From Arcobacteraceae bacterium (GTDB lineage: Bacteria > Campylobacterota > Campylobacteria > Campylobacterales > Arcobacteraceae), in contig JAOZJU010000010.1 in the NCBI GenBank assembly GCA_029935705.1, positions 1-42,097 of the forward strand: 42,097 nucleotides of DNA, in the 5' to 3' direction. Below are positions 17,410 to 35,614 of this stretch, piece by piece. The notes under the pieces were generated by a model. That model made no database searches. It had not been told where the DNA came from and saw nothing but the letters and a program-made list of their open reading frames with translations. The position numbers were made by a program, and so were the translations under genes. Every line of letters starts with the position of its first letter. The stretch's first letter is position 1.

Positions 17410-18117
17410 GTGGGTAGAGCATTTGAATACAGAAAAGCAGCCAAACTAAAAAGATGGGGAAATATGTCAAAAGTATTTCCAAAACTTGCCAAAGCTATCA
17501 CAATGGCGGCAAAACAAGGTGTGCCTGATCCTGATATGAATGCACCATTAAGAACCGCTATAAACAATGCAAAAGCCCAAAACTTACCAAAAGAAAATAT
17601 AGCTTCAGCTATAAAAAGAGCAACATCTAAAGATAGTGCAAATTTGTCAGAGGTAAACTATGAGGGCAAAAGTAGTTTTGGAGTGCTTGTGTTTGTCCAG
17701 TGTGCTACAGACAATACAGCAAGAACAGTAGCTCATATCAAAGATATATTTAAAAAAAACAAAGGACAACTATTGCCTACTGGTTCGTTGGAGTTTATGT
17801 TTGACAGAAAATCTGTATATGAGATAAGCAAACCATCTATGGATATAGATGATTTGGAGCTTTTTATGATTGATTTTGGTTGGCAGTCATATGATATAGA
17901 TGACGATACTATATATGTATATGGTGATTTTAAAGATTTTGGAACATTAAGCGATGGTTTTGAAAAGCTTGAAATTGAGGTAAAATCAGCAAAACTTGAA
18001 AGAATACCAAACAACCCACAAGAGATAAGCGATGAAGCTATGGCTGATATAGAGAATCTTTTAGAAAAACTTGAAGAGGATGAAGATGTTCAAGCGGTAT
18101 GGACAAATATATTATAA
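17410..18117 (+). CDS. YebC/PmpR (TACO1) family protein
   Basis: A 235-residue cytoplasmic protein of the YebC/TACO1 family. It begins MGRAFEYRKAAKLKRWGNMS, includes the conserved NAPLRTAINNAKAQNLPKENI stretch and ends in the acidic C-terminal lobe (LEKLEEDEDVQAVWTN). Family members were described as DNA-binding regulators (PmpR) and more recently as ribosome-linked factors that help translate difficult peptide stretches; the setting after rpsT and prfA fits a translation role. The start is GTG 17410, one base after the prfA stop. Confidence 0.94.
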   Translation: MGRAFEYRKAAKLKRWGNMSKVFPKLAKAITMAAKQGVPDPDMNAPLRTAINNAKAQNLPKENIASAIKRATSKDSANLSEVNYEGKSSFGVLVFVQCATDNTARTVAHIKDIFKKNKGQLLPTGSLEFMFDRKSVYEISKPSMDIDDLELFMIDFGWQSYDIDDDTIYVYGDFKDFGTLSDGFEKLEIEVKSAKLERIPNNPQEISDEAMADIENLLEKLEEDEDVQAVWTNIL

Positions 18118-18127
18118 AGGTAAATTT

Positions 18128-19516
18128 ATGAAAAATTCTATTTTATTTGTATTGATTTTAAACTCTTTTTTGTATGCAAGTACTATAAAACAAGGTCAAA
18201 AATTGCAAATAACTGGATGTGACGAACATCAATGGTGTCACATAAAAGGCACAAAATTTTATATCAAAGGTTTCAAATATAAAAAAAATGGCAACACAGT
18301 AACACTTAAACCACAATTTGATGATGCTTCGTATTATAAAAGAACTCAAGATGGAGATAGTTATGGTTTTGTAGAAACATCTGGTCCTTCAAATAGTCAA
18401 AAAAATGAGTTTTTGACACAAAAAGCAAAAAGAGCTAAGATATTGGCTCAAGAAGCCAAAGCAAAAAAGCTGAAAAAATACAAACCAATAAAAACTAATA
18501 TAAGAGTAATACCTTCTGTTGAAGATGAGCAAATAGATACAAAATATATAGAGACAAAAAAACTTGACACAATAAAACCAGGCGACAAGATCATAGTAGA
18601 AAGTTGCGATGAATATAGATGGTGTAAAGTAGCTAAAACTGAGTATTATATAAGAGGCCATAAGTTTGATTTTGTAGGAAAAGAGTTTTTTCTCAAAAAG
18701 AGATATAGTGAAGCATTTTATTATGTCAATGTAAACAAAAAAGTATTTGGATACAAAAAAGCATACGATACAAACGAGATAGACACACTAAAACCACTTA
18801 AAGATGAAGAGCCACAAGAAAAGATAGACACATTGCAACCTTTGATAAGCGAAGATGTAGAAGAGATGCAAAACCAACAAGAGGATGAAGAGGTATTTGT
18901 ATACAACAAGATGGGACAAAAAGAGATATCAAATGAAGACCCTGAAGATTATCTCGCAAGAGAAGATACAGCTTCAACAAATGAAGATACAGCTTCAACT
19001 ATCAGCAAATCAAATTTTTATCTATCTTTGGGTATAGGGTTTGGCAAAACAGATATTGATATAAATATACCAGAAAGTTTTTTGAGTGAAGATATAGACA
19101 AAAGTTCCATTGGCATAGATATGGGAGCTGGAGTTGAGTATGATACCTTTTTGTTTGGTGCGAATTATGAGTATCAAAAGACAAATAGTTACAATATAAA
19201 AAGCTATTTTTTAGATATCAATTATAAACTATATAAAGATGATATATATCCATATGTCGGTATTTTTGCTGGATATAGCAAACTGTTGTGGGACAAATCT
19301 CCTATCAAAACAACTACAGATACCAAACTTGATAGTCAAGATGCCACATACGGAGCACAAATTGGGATTGTAAAAGATATAAACAAACACATTGATATAC
19401 GATTGTATTACAGATATGCAAAACAAAACTTCAAAACAGATATCACAAATAGCAGTAACTATATCAAACACAACAGCACAAACAGCTTAATAATGGGAGT
19501 AAAATATGTATTTTAG
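18128..19516 (+). CDS. Outer membrane beta-barrel protein with two cysteine-paired SH3-like repeats
   Basis: A 462-residue exported protein. Residues 1-17 form a signal peptide (ILFVLILNSFLYAS). Two SH3-like units follow, near 22-55 and 150-185, each with the core C-D-E-x-x-W-C (Cys31/Cys37 and Cys160/Cys166) and a trailing YI-x-G. A Lys/Ala-rich helical linker lies at 90-120, and an acidic linker at 215-290 contains two IDTLxPL copies. Residues 296-462 alternate like strands and end in Phe, as in small outer membrane barrels. An upstream in-frame ATG (18071) lies inside the YebC gene; ATG 18128 is preferred because AAAGG and the signal peptide follow correctly. The SH3 units may bind peptidoglycan. 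Confidence 0.82.
   Translation: MKNSILFVLILNSFLYASTIKQGQKLQITGCDEHQWCHIKGTKFYIKGFKYKKNGNTVTLKPQFDDASYYKRTQDGDSYGFVETSGPSNSQKNEFLTQKAKRAKILAQEAKAKKLKKYKPIKTNIRVIPSVEDEQIDTKYIETKKLDTIKPGDKIIVESCDEYRWCKVAKTEYYIRGHKFDFVGKEFFLKKRYSEAFYYVNVNKKVFGYKKAYDTNEIDTLKPLKDEEPQEKIDTLQPLISEDVEEMQNQQEDEEVFVYNKMGQKEISNEDPEDYLAREDTASTNEDTASTISKSNFYLSLGIGFGKTDIDINIPESFLSEDIDKSSIGIDMGAGVEYDTFLFGANYEYQKTNSYNIKSYFLDINYKLYKDDIYPYVGIFAGYSKLLWDKSPIKTTTDTKLDSQDATYGAQIGIVKDINKHIDIRLYYRYAKQNFKTDITNSSNYIKHNSTNSLIMGVKYVF
18962..18999 (+). repeat. 21-base-period tandem repeat inside the SH3/barrel gene
   Basis: GAAGATACAGCTTCAAC occurs at 18962-18978 and again at 18983-18999, period 21 bases, encoding EDTAST twice in the linker just before the barrel. 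In-frame gain or loss of copies would change linker length without breaking the protein. Confidence 0.85.
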
Positions 19517-20540
19517 ACTATTATTATATTTTTTAACAGCAATATTTTTTGTAAACTGTGGCAATGAAGATAGTAAAATAACTATAAACTATCTATCTAT
19601 CGATGAAAGCAGATGGACAATTATGGAAAACTACTATATAGACAAAAATGTATCATATACATATCTTAAAGATGACACCTTAACTTGGACAATAACAGGA
19701 GCAGACAAAGAGAAATTTGATATCAATAGCACCACTGGGAATATTAAAAACAAGGTAAATTTTGATTTTGAATCACCAGATGACAACGATACAAACAATA
19801 TATATGAGATAGAGATAAATGTCCAAGATGGCACATACAAAGCAAGCAAAACAGTTCAAATCGAAGTAACAGATGAAACAATAGATGGCAAAAAGTTTGG
19901 GCAAACTGGATACAATATGAGATATGAATCAGTTTTAAGTAGTAGTGGCCAAAGATGGCTAAGAACAAATCTAGGAGCTAAATATAACGATATTGATGGA
20001 GGTGATTTTGACCCAGATATAAATCTCTCCGATGGGACAAACAACTATAAAGCATACGGATTTTTGTATCAATGGGGCAGAGGTATGGATGGACACGAAC
20101 AGATATCGTGGACAGACAATGTGTCAGGAAGTGGCAATGGTGTAACTAGCACACAAACAAATATTCCAGCTCATAACAAATTTATCAACACTCATGATGA
20201 TTGGAGAAACACCAACGACTCATCATTGTGGAGTGAAGAATCATCTACAAACAACCCTTGCCCAGATGGTTATAGAGTTCCTACAATAGCTGAATTTAAC
20301 AAAGAGAATATTACTAACTATAGCAGTGGTATTGGCTCTGTTCTTCATCTAACAAAGGCAGGCATAAGACAAAAAAGTGATGGCGATACAGTAGAGACAG
20401 ATACAACAGGAGTATATGCCACAAACAAAGAAGCAGGGACGACAAATCATTTTGAATCATTTGAATTTAACAATACATCAGCAGGTTTATCTTCAAGAGC
20501 AAAAGCCACAGGTATATCTGTAAGATGTATAAAAAATTAA
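19506..20540 (+). CDS. Lipoprotein with cadherin-like and FISUMP domains
   Basis: A 344-residue lipoprotein. Signal peptide and lipobox (FFVN-Cys18) occupy the N-terminus. Residues 45-125 look like a cadherin-type domain (WTITGADKEKFDINSTTG; EIEINVQDGTYKASKTVQIEVTDE). The C-terminal 210 residues match the Fibrobacter succinogenes major paralogous (FISUMP) domain: FLYQWGRGMDG, PCPDGYRVPTIAEF and the closing GLSSRAKATGISVRCIKN. The function of FISUMP domains is unknown; many are on surface lipoproteins. ATG 19506 lies inside the last 11 bases of the upstream barrel gene, so the two proteins are translated together and probably act together in the outer membrane. Confidence 0.83.
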   Translation: MYFRLLLYFLTAIFFVNCGNEDSKITINYLSIDESRWTIMENYYIDKNVSYTYLKDDTLTWTITGADKEKFDINSTTGNIKNKVNFDFESPDDNDTNNIYEIEINVQDGTYKASKTVQIEVTDETIDGKKFGQTGYNMRYESVLSSSGQRWLRTNLGAKYNDIDGGDFDPDINLSDGTNNYKAYGFLYQWGRGMDGHEQISWTDNVSGSGNGVTSTQTNIPAHNKFINTHDDWRNTNDSSLWSEESSTNNPCPDGYRVPTIAEFNKENITNYSSGIGSVLHLTKAGIRQKSDGDTVETDTTGVYATNKEAGTTNHFESFEFNNTSAGLSSRAKATGISVRCIKN

Positions 20541-20549
20541 AGAAGATAT

Positions 20550-22094
20550 ATGGATAAAGTTCTTGCTTTAAAATACAGGCCAAAAAGTTTTGATGAGTTA
20601 ATAGGCCAAGAAACAATATCACAAACACTTAGTTTGGCTTTAGATAGTGACAGAATAGCTCATGCATATCTGCTAAGTGGGTTAAGGGGTAGTGGCAAAA
20701 CATCTACTGCTAGAATATTATCCAAATCGATCCTCTGTGAAAAAGGCCCAAGCTCAAAACCATGCGAACTTTGCGATAGTTGTATATCTGCTAACAGTGG
20801 AAAACATATGGATATAGTAGAGATGGATGCGGCATCAAACAGAGGGATTGATGATATAAAAAAACTAATAGAACACATACGATACAAACCATCTGTAGGA
20901 AAATATAAGATATTTATCATAGATGAGATACATATGCTCACAAATGAAGCTTTTAATGCTTTGTTAAAAACACTTGAAGAGCCACCTGCTTATGTGAGGT
21001 TTGTACTAGCAACTACAGATCCACTTAAACTTCCTGCTACGATTTTAAGTAGGACACAGCACTTTAGGTTCAAAAAAATATCAGTAGATGATGTAGTTCA
21101 ACATCTGTCATATATATTAAATATAGAGAAAATTGAGTTTGAAAAACAAGCTTTGGAGATATTAGCAAGACACGGACACGGAAGCTTAAGAGATAGTTTA
21201 ACTATACTTGACCAAGCTATCATATATACAAAAAGCGATATAACGGTTCAAGCTGTTACACAGATGTTAGGTTTGGTTGATGATGAGCTTTTTGATAAAC
21301 TTTTTGATATAGTTTTAAACCAAAAAGATATAGATGAAATAGTTGAAGAGTTAAAAATGCACGAGTTTGGAATGGTGCTTGATGAGTTGTCTATATATCT
21401 TAAAAATTGTTTAAAAAATAAAAATCCAAAATTTGATATGATGCTGTATGAGAGGTGTTTTAAAATCATTGCAAACTCAAAATATCTTTTGAGTTTAAAT
21501 AGCGATGAAGAGTTTGTATTGTATCTAACTTTGATGAAACTAAAAGAGGCATCTAAAAAAGAGACAATTGACAATATAATAAACAAAATCCAATCTATAC
21601 CAACTACTGACTCTAAAAAAACCTTGACAAAAGAGCAACCAATAGAAGAAAAAGATGACAAAGAGTTGTTCAAGATGGTTATTGAAAATATATATGACAA
21701 AAGTTTTGAAGTAGGACAATGTATCGAAAATGGTTTTAAATTTATAAGATATGCCGATGGTTTGGTTTATATCAAATCAAAAGTAGATGAAAAGTGCAAA
21801 ACTCTTATATGGCAAAATTATGATATAGTCAAAACAAAATTTAAAGAAGTTTTTAAAGATATGAAAGATATCAAATATATCAAAGATGAAGAGATAAAAA
21901 CTACTCAAGAACCCCAACTCTCAAAAGAAGATACAACTGAAGGCTCAAGCTGTATAGAAAATAGTATATCAAAAACAAAAGCGGTAGATGGTATGCCAAA
22001 TACAGAAGTACAGGATATACAAAACAGCGATATGGTTAAAAAAACTCAAGATTATTTTAAAACTACCGATATAAAAATCCAAACCAAAGCATAA
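20550..22094 (+). CDS. dnaX: DNA polymerase III subunit gamma/tau
   Basis: Clamp-loader ATPase of the replicative polymerase. The 514-residue protein has Walker A GLRGSGKT at 44-51, four zinc-binding cysteines (63, 72, 75, 78), Walker B IFIIDEIH from 121, and a sensor/arginine-finger region (LSRTQ) near 166. Domain III ends around 350; after it comes a lysine/glutamate-rich tail where tau would contact DnaB and the polymerase. A run of seven A at 21615-21621 lies just after domain III (see findings). It follows the envelope genes by 9 bases and precedes proB by 4. Confidence 0.95.
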   Translation: MDKVLALKYRPKSFDELIGQETISQTLSLALDSDRIAHAYLLSGLRGSGKTSTARILSKSILCEKGPSSKPCELCDSCISANSGKHMDIVEMDAASNRGIDDIKKLIEHIRYKPSVGKYKIFIIDEIHMLTNEAFNALLKTLEEPPAYVRFVLATTDPLKLPATILSRTQHFRFKKISVDDVVQHLSYILNIEKIEFEKQALEILARHGHGSLRDSLTILDQAIIYTKSDITVQAVTQMLGLVDDELFDKLFDIVLNQKDIDEIVEELKMHEFGMVLDELSIYLKNCLKNKNPKFDMMLYERCFKIIANSKYLLSLNSDEEFVLYLTLMKLKEASKKETIDNIINKIQSIPTTDSKKTLTKEQPIEEKDDKELFKMVIENIYDKSFEVGQCIENGFKFIRYADGLVYIKSKVDEKCKTLIWQNYDIVKTKFKEVFKDMKDIKYIKDEEIKTTQEPQLSKEDTTEGSSCIENSISKTKAVDGMPNTEVQDIQNSDMVKKTQDYFKTTDIKIQTKA

Positions 22095-22098
22095 TATC

Positions 22099-22863
22099 AT
22101 GAAAAAAAGGTTAGTTATCAAAATAGGCTCTGCTATCTTGACCAAGAAAGATATGATAAATGAAAAAAGATTGAAAAAGATAGTTAAATTTATCTTTCAA
22201 TTGAGACAAAATAATTATGAAGTGATAGTTGTAAGTAGTGGAGCAGTAGCTTCTGGATATACTGAACTAAAATTAGACAAAAACAGATTAAACAACAAAC
22301 AAGCATTGGCTTCTATAGGCCAGCCACTTCTTATGGCAAAATTTAAAAAAGCTTTTGATAAGTTTGATATAATATGTTCACAATTTCTTATAGAAGCTAC
22401 TGTATTTAAAGATAAGATAAGATTAGATCATGCAAAAGATACCATAGAAGCATTGATAAAAAATAGTGTTGTACCAATAATCAACGAAAACGACACAACA
22501 TACACAGATGAACTGGAGTTTGGTGACAATGACCAGCTCGCTGGCTTTGTGGCGGTATATTTTGATGCTATGGGTGTTTTGATATTAAGTGATATAGATG
22601 GATATTATGATAAAAATCCACAACACTACAAAGATGCCAAACTGATAAAAAAAATAAGCAAAATACCAAAAAAAGAGATGATAAAAAAACCTACTCAAAA
22701 TAGCCAATTTTCAACTGGTGGCATAGTAACTAAACTAAAAGCTGCCCACTATTTGATAAAACATAACAAATTTATGTTGCTAACAACTGGGTTTGAACTA
22801 AAAATAGCAAAAAACTATTTTCTAAAAAATATACACAACGGCGGGACTATATTTCAAAAATGA
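22099..22863 (+). CDS. proB: Glutamate 5-kinase
   Basis: Phosphorylates glutamate in the first step of proline synthesis. The 254-residue protein has the amino acid kinase fold: KRLVIKIGSAIL at the N-terminus, VVSSGAVASGY near 50, INENDTTYTDELEFGDNDQLAG near 132-153 and FSTGGIVTKLKAA near 205. It lacks the C-terminal PUA domain of the E. coli enzyme (367 residues), as is normal for short Campylobacterota ProB. The stop overlaps the fmt ATG by 4 bases. The proB-fmt order is also seen in Campylobacter. Confidence 0.95.
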   Translation: MKKRLVIKIGSAILTKKDMINEKRLKKIVKFIFQLRQNNYEVIVVSSGAVASGYTELKLDKNRLNNKQALASIGQPLLMAKFKKAFDKFDIICSQFLIEATVFKDKIRLDHAKDTIEALIKNSVVPIINENDTTYTDELEFGDNDQLAGFVAVYFDAMGVLILSDIDGYYDKNPQHYKDAKLIKKISKIPKKEMIKKPTQNSQFSTGGIVTKLKAAHYLIKHNKFMLLTTGFELKIAKNYFLKNIHNGGTIFQK

Positions 22864-23777
22864 TAAAAATCATATATATGGGAACCGCACAATTTTCTAC
22901 AACAATATTTGAAAAGCTTTATAACGATAAGCATATAGAAATCTCGACTCTATTTACTCAACCAGACAAAAAAGTAGGACGAAAACAGATCTTAACTGCA
23001 CCACATATAAAGCAGTTTTGTAAAACAAATGATATAGATATAGATATATATCAGCCTACAAATCCAAACGATAAAAGATATATCGAACTTATCAAAGATA
23101 TAAAACCTGATTTTATAATTGTAGCATCATATGCAAAAATTTTGTCACAAGAGATATTAGATATCGCTCCTTGTATAAATCTACACACCTCTATCTTGCC
23201 AAAATATAGAGGAGCTAGCCCTATACAAACAGCTATATTAAACAACGATAAATATACTGGAACTACTGCTATGTATATGGCAAAAGGACTTGATAGCGGA
23301 GAGATATTGTCAACTGCTTATATAAAAATAGAACAAAAAGATGATATATCCTCTTTGTTTGACAAATTGTCAGTCGTATCAGCAGATCTAATTTTGTATG
23401 TATTGAAAAATTTTCAAACTATTTTACCTAAAAAACAGCAACCATCTCAAGCTACATATTGTGGCAAAATATCAAAAAACGATGCGATAGTTTCATTTGA
23501 TGATAGTAGCAAATTGTTTCAAAAATATAAAGCATATAAGTTTTGGCCTGAAATTCACACAAAAAATAGTCTAAAGATAAAAAGCTGTGATATATTGGAT
23601 AGAAATAGTTTAAACAAAAGTGGTGTGATATTAGAAATAAGCAAAGATGGTATAACAGTTGGATGCAAAAAAGGTTCAATAAAAATTTATCAACTCCAAG
23701 CACCATCAAAAAAAGCGATAAATGCCACTGACTATACAAGAGGCAAAAGGTTATCCAGGGGTGATATTTTTGGATAA
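22860..23777 (+). CDS. fmt: Methionyl-tRNA formyltransferase
   Basis: Formylates initiator Met-tRNA using 10-formyltetrahydrofolate. The 305-residue protein shows the formyltransferase core: IIYMGTAQFS at the start, LFTQPDKKVGRKQ near 36, the catalytic block INLHTSILPKYRGASPIQTAIL near 107-128, and D-S-G-E-I-L after. The C-terminal OB-like domain follows (about 205-305). Asn in I-N-L-H, the His, and the downstream Asp give the expected Asn/His/Asp catalytic set. Start ATG overlaps proB (ATGA). Confidence 0.95.
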   Translation: MIKIIYMGTAQFSTTIFEKLYNDKHIEISTLFTQPDKKVGRKQILTAPHIKQFCKTNDIDIDIYQPTNPNDKRYIELIKDIKPDFIIVASYAKILSQEILDIAPCINLHTSILPKYRGASPIQTAILNNDKYTGTTAMYMAKGLDSGEILSTAYIKIEQKDDISSLFDKLSVVSADLILYVLKNFQTILPKKQQPSQATYCGKISKNDAIVSFDDSSKLFQKYKAYKFWPEIHTKNSLKIKSCDILDRNSLNKSGVILEISKDGITVGCKKGSIKIYQLQAPSKKAINATDYTRGKRLSRGDIFG

Positions 23778-24678
23778 TGAAACTTTACACAAACCAGTCT
23801 TAAAAGAGCAGGTTGTAGATATATTTAAAGAAGCGAAAGGATATATAGTTGATTGTACTTGTGGTTATGGTGGACATAGTCAAGCTATACTTGAAGCAAA
23901 CCAAAATGTAAGTTTGATATGCAACGACCAAGACCAAGTGGCGATTGATTTTTCAACTAAAAAGTTAGCAAAATATAAAAACAGAGTAACATTTACAAAA
24001 CAAAATTTTGAAAATATCATAAACACAGTTAAAGAGAAAAAAATAGTAGGTATATTAGCAGATATTGGGGTGTCATCTTTGCAACTTGATGACAAAAGTA
24101 GAGGTTTTAGCTTTCTTTCTCAAACACTTGATATGAGGATGGATAGAAGCAATCAATTAAGTGCATATGATGTAGTCAACCACTATACACAAACAAAACT
24201 ACAGCAGATACTAAAAGAGTATGCAGAGGTAAAAGAGGCAAAAAAGTTAAGCGAAGCGATAGTTAAAAATAGACCCATAAAAACAGCTATAGAGTTATCT
24301 AAAATTTGTGAAAAATATATATACAAAAAAAAGACAAACCCAGCAACTGGTGTATTTCAAGCTATACGAATAGAGGTAAACAGAGAGCTTGAGGTGTTAG
24401 AAAATCTCTTAAAAACAGTAGAAGATGCTGATTTGAAGGGTTGCCTTGTAGCAATAATATCGTTTCACTCTCTTGAAGATAGGATAGTTAAGCGGTATTT
24501 TAACTCATGGTCAAAAAACTGCATATGTCCTACAAATTTTATGCGATGTGAGTGTGGCAACAACAATGCAAAAGGGTATAAGATCACCAAAAAACCAATT
24601 GTAGCTACAAAAGATGAGCTTGCAAAAAACAAAAGAGCCAGAAGTGCAAAGATGAGAGTGTTTAGATTTGCAAGTTGA
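23770..24678 (+). CDS. rsmH: 16S rRNA (cytosine(1402)-N4)-methyltransferase
   Basis: Methylates C1402 of 16S rRNA. The product starts ..DNETLHKPVLKEQVVDIF, followed by the SAM-binding V-D-C-T-C-G-Y-G-G-H-S motif, DIGVSSLQLDDKSRGFSF and ISFHSLEDRIVK. Start choice: I use TTG 23770 (302 residues), 9 bases after AGGGG and next to the fmt stop. GTG 23761 is possible, and the far upstream ATG at 23722 lies deep in fmt and adds residues not expected for the family. It sits before an ftsL-like gene, as rsmH does in classic division clusters. Confidence 0.92.
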   Translation: MDNETLHKPVLKEQVVDIFKEAKGYIVDCTCGYGGHSQAILEANQNVSLICNDQDQVAIDFSTKKLAKYKNRVTFTKQNFENIINTVKEKKIVGILADIGVSSLQLDDKSRGFSFLSQTLDMRMDRSNQLSAYDVVNHYTQTKLQQILKEYAEVKEAKKLSEAIVKNRPIKTAIELSKICEKYIYKKKTNPATGVFQAIRIEVNRELEVLENLLKTVEDADLKGCLVAIISFHSLEDRIVKRYFNSWSKNCICPTNFMRCECGNNNAKGYKITKKPIVATKDELAKNKRARSAKMRVFRFAS

Positions 24679-33893: not shown

Positions 33894-34793
33894 ATGATAA
33901 GAGATTTTAATAAAATCAGAACATTTTTGACCATCGCAAGAACAAAATCATTTTCACAAACATCAAAAAAACTCGGTATTTCACAACCAGCAGTCACTCA
34001 ACAAATAAGACTTATAGAGGATTATCTTGAGCAACATGTGTTTATAAGAAAAAAGAATGGCACAAAACTTACAAAAGTTGGAAAATCTTTTTTAACTGTT
34101 TGTCAAAAAATAGAAAAGACACTCCAAAAAGCAGAAAATGAGGTTATTGATATTATCAACAAAAAGATGATATTTGATTTTGGAACATCATTTGTAGTTG
34201 GTAACTATATTTTGCCAAACTATCTAAATAAGATAAAAGAGGGTATCAAAAATGATGTAAATATAGAGGTCTCTACATCGGCAGAAGCACTTGATAAGCT
34301 TGAAGATGGAGATGTCGATATGGCATTGATTGATGTGCCAAACGATTCTAAAAATATTGTTTTTAAAGAGTGGATGGATGATGAGATTGTGATATTTTCA
34401 AACCAAAAACTCCCCGCTAAACTTACATCAAATGATATATTAAATTACAAATGGGTATGCAGAGACAGAGACAGCAACACCAGGCAGATATTTAAAGAAG
34501 CTTTAGAGCTGTCAAATTTACCTGATTGTGATCATTTTAATATCATAAGCGAATCATCAAGTCCAACATCGATCATAAACACTGTTTTAAAAAGCGACAA
34601 AAACTCTACGCCTACTGTCTCGATAGTATCAAAGTTTGCATTGGAAGATTATATCAGTTCTGGTATGATATATATCTCAAAAATAGAAAAAAAAATCAAC
34701 AGAAAGTTATATATAGCATACCACAAAGAGAAAAAATACGATCTATTTGTAGATAAAGTGACCGCCTTTTTGATGAACCATAAGAGTAAATAA
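33894..34793 (+). CDS. LysR family transcriptional regulator
   Basis: A 299-residue regulator. The N-terminal winged helix-turn-helix (FLTIARTKSFSQTSKKLGIS then QPAVTQQIRLIEDYL) occupies about 10-50 and is followed by the linker helix (about 65-90). The substrate-binding domain runs from 93 (FDFGTSFVVGNYILPNYL) to 295 in two lobes. Genes of this class sense a small molecule; no divergent target gene is present. It overlaps nadC by one base (TAATG), so the pair is co-transcribed, but a link to NAD synthesis is only suggested by position. Confidence 0.93.
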   Translation: MIRDFNKIRTFLTIARTKSFSQTSKKLGISQPAVTQQIRLIEDYLEQHVFIRKKNGTKLTKVGKSFLTVCQKIEKTLQKAENEVIDIINKKMIFDFGTSFVVGNYILPNYLNKIKEGIKNDVNIEVSTSAEALDKLEDGDVDMALIDVPNDSKNIVFKEWMDDEIVIFSNQKLPAKLTSNDILNYKWVCRDRDSNTRQIFKEALELSNLPDCDHFNIISESSSPTSIINTVLKSDKNSTPTVSIVSKFALEDYISSGMIYISKIEKKINRKLYIAYHKEKKYDLFVDKVTAFLMNHKSK

Positions 34794-35614
34794 TGGTGAA
34801 TATTAAAAAATTTGTAAAAAATGCTATATTTGAAGATAATGGCAGGGGAGATCTCTTTTTTGATATTGCTCCAAAGGGTCGATTTAAAGCGAGAGTCATA
34901 GCAAAAGACAATGGAGTATTAGCTGGTGTCAAATATGCAAAAGTATTAAGCAAAGCAGAGAAGTTTGATTGTAAATTTTTGTTTTTTGATGGTCAGTATA
35001 TCAAAAAAGGGGACACTATAGCAAAACTTGAAGGTAAAGCATCTATACTATTAAGTAGTGAAAGGACTTTTCTAAATATGCTTCAACATGCCTCAGGTAT
35101 TGCAACTATGGCTTCAAAATATGCCAAACTACTTAAAGATAGCAATGTTGTGCTTTTGGATACGAGAAAAACAAGACCTTTGTTGAGAAATTTTGAAAAA
35201 TATGCATCTAGAGTTGGTGGAGCTATCAATCATAGACTTGGACTTGATGATTGTTTGATGTTAAAAGATACACACCTTAAAACTATATCCAACTTAGAAG
35301 AGTTTATAAAAATAGCAAGAAAAAGGATCTCATGGGTTACCAAAATTGAAGTAGAGTGTGAGACCTATGAGCAAAGTTTGGTGGCTATGAAAGCTGGAGC
35401 TGATATAATTATGTGTGATAATATGAGTTATGATATGATAAAACAAATATCAAGATATAGAGACAAAAATCACCCACATATACTACTTGAAGCTAGTGGC
35501 AATATAACTCTTGATACTATTACCGACTATCTTGATACTGGCATAGATGCCATAAGTAGTGGGTCTATCATTCACCATGCGGTGTGGCTTGATTTTTCTA
35601 TGAGGTTTGATTAG
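34793..35614 (+). CDS. nadC: Nicotinate-nucleotide diphosphorylase (carboxylating)
   Basis: Quinolinate phosphoribosyltransferase: makes nicotinate mononucleotide from quinolinate and PRPP for NAD synthesis. The 273-residue protein has N-terminal E-D-N-G-R-G-D-L (the usual EDxGxGD), the phosphate-binding block LDTRKTRPLLRNFEKYA near 121-137, and GGAINHRLGLDDCLMLKDTH near 141-160, then EVECETYEQ and EASGNI. The related ModD proteins differ in these blocks. Its last 17 bases overlap the convergent gene 35598-36035. Confidence 0.94.
   Translation: MVNIKKFVKNAIFEDNGRGDLFFDIAPKGRFKARVIAKDNGVLAGVKYAKVLSKAEKFDCKFLFFDGQYIKKGDTIAKLEGKASILLSSERTFLNMLQHASGIATMASKYAKLLKDSNVVLLDTRKTRPLLRNFEKYASRVGGAINHRLGLDDCLMLKDTHLKTISNLEEFIKIARKRISWVTKIEVECETYEQSLVAMKAGADIIMCDNMSYDMIKQISRYRDKNHPHILLEASGNITLDTITDYLDTGIDAISSGSIIHHAVWLDFSMRFD

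Follow-up and report, generated by a model that had tools for sequence, protein, structure and literature searches.

Partnerships between lipoproteins and barrel proteins of the outer membrane have been worked out in few model systems. OmpA ties its barrel to the cell wall through a periplasmic domain. In E. coli, the lipoprotein RcsF acts in complexes with barrel proteins (PMC4942254, PMC7553776), and the second of these reports has it binding the periplasmic part of OmpA and not its barrel. The Legionella adhesin Lcl recognizes host glycosaminoglycans. It has a C-terminal domain that resembles C-type-lectin-like domains (PMC11162425). Here, we analyzed a window of 42,097 nucleotides from an Arcobacteraceae bacterium (the whole of contig C78 of a 1.28 Mb genome that is 99.6% complete), in which two overlapping genes, referred to as gene 1 and gene 2, encode an exported SH3-like/barrel protein and a lipoprotein-type putative adhesin. 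No description of this gene pair was found in the open-licence literature.

We consider it on balance probable that the two genes represent a coupled anchor-plus-adhesin module for display at the outer membrane, whose products would form a complex that binds the wall and exposes an adhesive head. The product of gene 1 would be an OmpA-like eight-stranded barrel preceded, on the periplasmic side, by two SH3-like units, which sit on long flexible linkers and probably hold the cell wall. The codons for the last barrel residues contain a GGAG and an ATG through which ribosomes that have finished gene 1 would start again on gene 2, which would keep synthesis of the partner matched to that of the barrel. 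Gene 2 would provide an outer-membrane lipoprotein with a cadherin-like stalk bearing a C-type-lectin-like FISUMP head, most likely a surface adhesin, with the barrel as a partner dedicated to it and as its anchor to the wall. In other pairs of the genus, different heads appear to be coupled to this type of barrel.

Recurrence of the pair and content of the overlap

Gene 1 (462 amino acids; forward strand, from the ATG at 18128 to the stop at 19516) and gene 2 (344 amino acids; forward strand, from the ATG at 19506 to the stop at 20540) share exactly 11 bases, ATGTATTTTAG; the reading frames thereby confirmed the pair and the overlap described in an original prediction that a model had made from the letters of the window. 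The genus was represented by four genomes, i.e., the window's own (G000) and the congeners G001, G002 and G003. A profile search for the SH3-barrel family (E<=1e-6) gave 20 matches in these genomes (4, 6, 4 and 6), all of which were examined, and 16 weaker matches in 12 of the other 100 genomes of the family. Behind 10 of the 20 genus barrels lies a lipoprotein-type gene that overlaps the barrel gene by exactly 11 bases, and these pairs fell into four orthologue families spread over all four genomes. The genes of a pair are therefore probably made and used together. The co-occurrence check that the original prediction had proposed thus gave a mixed outcome: followed from the barrel, the pairing recurs in the genus, and no barrel hit was found in 12 stretches around gene 2 relatives (L071-L075 and L133-L139, some near a contig end). 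Pairing specifically with a FISUMP protein did not hold, as the partner is another kind of lipoprotein in three of the four families.

Family a, located behind yebC in G000 (the window), G001 and G003, has the cadherin and FISUMP partner. The partners in family b are giant cadherin proteins; that of G001 has 1859 amino acids and 11 cadherin stretches, and that of G003 is interrupted by a run of N. Family c is found beside nadC in G001, G002 and G003 and has partners of 731-765 amino acids with DUF285/PARCEL repeats (two of the three scanned), and family d, found in G001 and G003, has short Cys-rich lipoproteins (44 amino acids, and 129 amino acids with a run of N). Modules found across the partners include cadherin, InlK, Ig-like, DUF285/PARCEL and FISUMP. 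One family c partner, L079, matched the PARCEL model TIGR02167 with 54.1 bits, over its cut-off of 30. The PARCEL/DUF285 lipoproteins of this Campylobacterota genus are encoded at L079 3699-5966, L076 6362-8557 and L082 2039-4336; DUF285 was matched with an E of 6e-56 in the first and 2e-57 in the second, and the third is alike by sequence. More tentatively, the families could represent a modular display system, in which lectin-like, giant cadherin, PARCEL-LRR (leucine-rich repeat) and short Cys-rich heads are exchangeable behind one wall-anchored coupling barrel.

The 10 unpaired genus barrels are the yebC-linked counterpart in G002, three beside a phosphoribosyl-pyrophosphate-synthase-like gene, three that form another family (one of which, truncated at a contig end, was assigned through its neighbors), two in tandem on G000:C29, and one on G000:C64 with a large lipoprotein gene 12 bases downstream. 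Counted by family, pairing was found in four of nine with the overlap and in five of nine with any adjacent lipoprotein.

The segment that carries the overlap, GGA GTA AAA TAT GTA TTT TAG (19496-19516, forward strand), encodes GVKYVF and the stop of gene 1; it also holds the GGAG ribosome site (19496-19499) and, at 19506, the start codon ATG of gene 2. The same bases would thus serve the barrel-assembly machinery as a beta-signal and ribosomes as an RNA signal. All 10 paired barrels end in GGA GTN ARA TAT GNW TTY TAR, which gives GGAG, six bases and ATG and which encodes G-V-K/R-Y-V/D-F-stop. GGAG was present in the terminal codons of 10/10 paired and 0/10 unpaired genus barrels, an association with pairing of 5e-6 by gene and 0.005 by family (with the a-type gene of G002 as a sixth unpaired unit), the latter figure being the fairer one as the genes are related. 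The yebC-linked orthologue in G002, where gene 2 is absent, ends in GGA ATA AAA TAT ATA TTT TAG and has neither the GGAG nor the ATG.

A looser pattern, GGNRTNARATATGNWTTYTAR, matched 10 places in the four genus genomes, exactly the 10 pairs, and its reversed control matched none. Among 397 genomes of the class, a draw that excluded G001 and G002, the pattern had 11 matches, five of which were the pairs in G000 and G003; the remaining six, in five other genomes (among 395), did not precede a lipoprotein by manual reading, and the reversed control had five. The coding overlap could provide a simple DNA signature for finding such pairs. By comparison, 13 of 214 tandem neighbors examined in the genus DNA shared 11 bases, i.e., seven barrel pairs and six others without a lipobox, in a count that omits genes cut by contig ends and the gene for the 44-amino-acid lipoprotein; 25 of 320 open reading frames (ORFs) passed a loose lipobox test. 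The length of the overlap alone is not meaningful and its content is. Based on the signals in this DNA, translation of gene 2 would be coupled to that of gene 1.

Domains of the two proteins

Gene 1 begins with a signal peptide, recognized by eye, followed by two cysteine-bearing SH3-like repeats built around CDxxxWC. Unit 1 (residues ~19-83, 18182-18376, motif CDEHQWCHI) and unit 2 (residues ~150-211, 18575-18760, motif CDEYRWCKV) were delimited by alignment, and both were modeled as beta-rich, with a predicted local distance difference test (pLDDT) of about 80-88 (mostly 85-88 in unit 1 and 80-87 in unit 2); the fold comparison spanned residues 291-462 only. SH3_3 (PF08239) matched gene 1 with an E of 1.1e-4 and 22.8 bits, below the cut-off of 27, as also indicated for unit 1. 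Single units gave a best E of 0.0053 against SH3_3, with 3 of 9 members matching, and a sequence search found no solved relative of the unit. Used as a wider marker, the unit had a match in 3 of 298 class genomes; one was the genome of the window, and the matches in the other two were weak. A disordered acidic linker (residues 214-293, 18767-19006, pLDDT <50) leads to an OmpA/NspA-like barrel (residues 296-462, 19013-19513) that ends in the beta-signal GVKYVF.

The model of gene 1 (nine sequences, mean pLDDT 67.7) shows eight long strands at residues 296-461. Compared with solved structures, this barrel matched NspA (Z 19.5, root-mean-square deviation [rmsd] 2.6, 148 aligned), OmpA (Z 18.5, rmsd 2.2, 154 aligned), OmpW (Z 16.6) and OmpX (Z 12.5). 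The modeled loops on the presumed outer side have 12, 3, 13 and 4 residues. By sequence, the barrel family showed only weak matches to the solved OprH, AlkL and NspA (best E 0.022), and OMP_b-brl (PF13505) matched gene 1 with an E of 1.5e-4 and 22.4 bits, below the cut-off of 28.7, which is passed by the counterpart in G002 (33.1) and by a family b barrel (29.9). Neither the C-terminal wall-binding domain of OmpA nor tetratricopeptide repeats (TPR) were matched in gene 1 at E<=1, and the protein ends with the barrel. An even number of strands together with a C-terminal beta-signal places both ends of a barrel in the periplasm; the SH3-like units, which are N-terminal to the barrel, should therefore be periplasmic, as had been supposed.

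Gene 2 begins with a signal peptide containing Cys18 and encodes a cadherin-like domain (residues 62-121, 19689-19868), which also matches the cadherin repeats of other pairs, and a FISUMP domain (residues 148-344, 19947-20537). Cadherin was matched with an E of 2.2e-4 and 22.0 bits (cut-off 28.8), Fib_succ_major of Pfam with an E of 0.0013 and 19.4 bits (cut-off 33.9), and FISUMP TIGR02145 with an E of 1e-7 and 32.8 bits over profile positions 18-175 of 176 (cut-off 41.65). The SH3-like, barrel, cadherin and FISUMP domains that had been predicted are present, with weak scores that all lie below the curated cut-offs. The TIGR02145 cut-off was likewise missed by all four other FISUMP-like proteins tested. 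An alignment of gene 2 with seven other FISUMP-like proteins had 36 invariant columns, and the motifs W-L/R-x-x-NLGA, YGxLxQWGR, DGHE, NPCPxGYR and VRCI were shared whole or nearly whole; the FISUMP identity of the domain is confirmed at the level of sequence motifs. Gene 2 is of lipoprotein type by its signal peptide and Cys18, but its lipobox in this species, FFVNC, is atypical; 9 of 11 lipoprotein starts tested, including the LMIGC of both orthologues, pass the standard pattern.

Among the 13 best structural neighbors of the low-confidence gene 2 model, 11 were judged to be C-type-lectin-like by title. These neighbors include venom proteins, which we take to have the C-type-lectin-like fold. 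The best neighbor was Bd2740 (Z 6.8, rmsd 2.7, 87 aligned), and Lcl was matched with Z 6.3, rmsd 4.6 and 106 aligned. Since all Z values are <8, the likeness of the FISUMP head to C-type lectins is a lead only. No credible solved relatives of gene 2 were found by sequence. The contigs of two congeners (L066 1-427 and L067 1-445) both break off within gene 2 where the FISUMP domain begins, which would be expected if assemblies fail at repeated FISUMP sequence.

Constraint, genomic setting and wider relatives

Between G001 and G003, the ratio of nonsynonymous to synonymous substitution rates (dN/dS) was 0.12-0.20 for four barrels and 0.20-0.28 for three partners, one of which was represented by the 142-amino-acid stump of family a and one by its first 700 amino acids. 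Purifying selection on both kinds of gene between these two congeners indicates that they are not chance ORFs. The dN of barrels and partners was 0.08-0.17 as compared to 0.007-0.03 for YebC, RF1 and NadC, with dS two to four times higher too. Barrels and partners are thus kept yet fast-changing, as surface proteins are. Barrel trees with 24 rows (window absent) and 23 rows (window included, u_G047b and u_G054 omitted, and a few residues after the barrel trimmed in two rows) kept families b-f together, with weak deep forks. Orthology of the window barrel with its yebC-linked counterparts rests on position, the two-unit build and best matches. Repeated loss of the partner is a simpler account than repeated gain.

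The pair is flanked by yebC (17410-18117) upstream and dnaX (20550-22094) downstream, with prfA further upstream and an amino-acid kinase gene (proB-like) further downstream; here and below, the names proB, fmt, rsmH and rpsT are those that we presume from the sequences. The order prfA-yebC-gene 1 is kept in all four genus genomes, and it is preceded by rpsT in the three where the ORF caller, which uses the first start codon and therefore gives some overlong N-termini, lists that gene; in G003 (L067), an antisense ORF is listed at the position. By comparison, dnaX adjoins gene 2 in the window only and lies after proB-like and fmt-like genes in G001-G003. The site is thus stable on one side only, and the predicted setting between YebC and dnaX stood for yebC (4/4) and not for dnaX (1/4), so that a conserved setting beside dnaX was rejected. 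The order dnaX-proB-fmt-rsmH in the window (20550-24678), as compared to fmt-proB-dnaX in G001-G003, suggests a local rearrangement. A gene at 34793-35614 of the window, presumably nadC, is 86% identical to the copies in the three congeners, which have the family c pair beside it; the window has no pair there. A promoter and terminator scan gave 32 promoter-like elements (28.0 in shuffles) and one terminator-like element (2.3 in shuffles). A mobile or plasmid origin was rejected, as gene 1 relatives were absent from the plasmid collection, the viral contigs and PHROGs (the latter at E<=0.01).

Of 120 related genomes, those of the genus among them, 25 had a match to gene 2, which covered the FISUMP part in 21 and the cadherin part alone in four. 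In G002, the cadherin and FISUMP combination is found at a contig end (L072), split in two frames and with its upstream side beyond the contig. Nine of the 16 weaker barrel places in other genera were examined, and five of these have a small lipoprotein gene (83-113 amino acids) located 1-9 bases upstream, suggesting that neighborship of lipoproteins and barrels is wider than the genus, in opposite order. These five genes (L124 6134-6475, L125 6668-6931, L126 6297-6602, L128 6041-6292 and L130 2918-3175) encode lipoproteins that have two additional cysteines and whose C-termini are related, e.g., CVVSGSAHLIR and CITTGSGTIY. An SH3-like region before the barrel was found in two of the nine places, L125 (SH3_3 E 0.0012, below the cut-off) and L127 (by eye).

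FISUMP-like domains are also encoded on 14 IMG/VR viral-contig loci (L151-L164), and in one genome of the order, G118 (L034, L057), the FISUMP part of gene 2 was matched at least 17 times (17 of 96 candidates scored), a large paralogous family. Contig G000:C38 (L085, 403-1973) encodes a reverse transcriptase (RT) of 410 amino acids (RVT_1 E 4.5e-21, motifs GLPIGSLSSQ and YVRYVDD), preceded by a bAvd-like ORF (E 3.2e-4, below the cut-off). By these motifs, including an SQ that we take to be a mark of such elements, the RT looks like part of a diversity-generating retroelement, for which neither template nor target was found. Action of this element on gene 2 was rejected: gene 2 matched only itself in its own genome (40 of 116 candidates scored), nothing resembling a template for its last 435 bases turned up in the 6000 bases searched of G000:C38 (6566 bases), and the 760 bases leading up to and into the RT start had no convincing second copy, the best place outside the contig having an E of 0.005.

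Alternative explanations and comparison with known systems

Several observations weigh against the coupled anchor-plus-adhesin reading. Half of the genus barrels lack an overlapping partner, which indicates that the barrel can work alone, and of the nine barrels examined from other genera, one (L128) carries GGAG in its terminal codons although no gene is coupled to it. The trees mix paired and unpaired families, with paired family b joining unpaired family e (99/98 and 99/99), and the window barrel sits on a long branch with no supported join to its yebC-linked counterparts. The SH3 and FISUMP assignments both score under the cut-offs, the former with no solved relative, and the FFVNC lipobox (Asn before Cys) fails the standard pattern, as does that of one other lipoprotein among the 10 pairs. 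The gene 2 model has a mean pLDDT of 52.6 and gave nothing significant in Foldseek (best E 1.3); both congeners that keep gene 2 show only the first residues of the FISUMP head. Moreover, the ORF for the family c barrel in G002 (286 amino acids) starts inside its SH3-like unit and has no signal peptide, and this pair may be broken or misassembled.

An unlikely alternative is that the pair represents an inward envelope tether, in which the SH3-like units and the cadherin and FISUMP domains would all be periplasmic and would join the outer membrane to the wall. The topology inferred for the SH3-like units fits this explanation, and lipoproteins are periplasmic by default. At about 4.5 nm per cadherin repeat, however, the family b partner with its 11 cadherin stretches would be too long for the periplasm, and the fast evolution of the proteins also argues against a tether, as do the PARCEL repeats and C-type-lectin-like heads, which are surface types by their model names and by the description of Lcl (PMC11162425).

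It appears rather improbable that the barrel, instead of being a lasting anchor, acts as an exporter dedicated to bringing the lipoprotein to the surface, as Slam does. Tight coupling with diverse cargoes could be explained in this way, and the Slam barrel protein is needed for display of surface lipoproteins (PMC7857515). The same text, however, gives Slam a predicted 14 strands plus TPR as compared to the eight strands modeled here, and even in the case of RcsF, OmpA is no longer thought to provide the route to the surface (PMC7553776).

Least probable is that the genes are mere neighbors whose recurrence reflects duplication of an old overlapping pair with no joint function. In its favor, 11-base overlaps occur in 6 of 207 other tandem neighbors and are thus not rare by themselves, and the barrel persists without a partner in G002. 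Against it, the coupling is retained across different types of partner, its signals are not seen in the barrel gene that lacks one, and lipoproteins directly precede related barrels at five of nine loci examined in other genera.

Set against known systems, the barrel of the proposed anchor-plus-adhesin module shares eight strands, a terminal beta-signal and a fold match with OmpA/NspA/OmpX-type barrels; it differs in that its presumed wall-binding module is N-terminal, SH3-like and carries paired cysteines, and in its short modeled extracellular loops. The partnership of a lipoprotein with a barrel is also found with RcsF, where the complex is known, whereas here it is read from the genes; RcsF is a stress sensor, while in the pair the genes overlap and the lipoprotein has adhesin-like modules. 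Since RcsF binds the periplasmic part of OmpA, the SH3-like region is as likely a contact as the barrel. Slam is an outer-membrane barrel protein that belongs with particular surface lipoproteins, as gene 1 presumably does, but it is larger, and gene 1 has neither its TPR nor its predicted 14-strand barrel. Gene 2 shares motifs with the FISUMP (TIGR02145) and DUF1566/Lcl C-terminal domains, Lcl being among its model neighbors, yet it scores under the curated cut-off and is coupled to a barrel gene. The likeness to BspA/DUF285 and PARCEL surface lipoproteins is found in the family c partner L079, which sits behind an SH3-barrel gene, and these repeats are not found in gene 2 of the window. The pair is thus mostly a genus-level variation on the known lipoprotein-barrel partnership, set apart by its coupling signature and exchangeable partners, and the four pair families, with different heads and the same coding overlap, represent a natural test set for the matching of lipoproteins with barrels.

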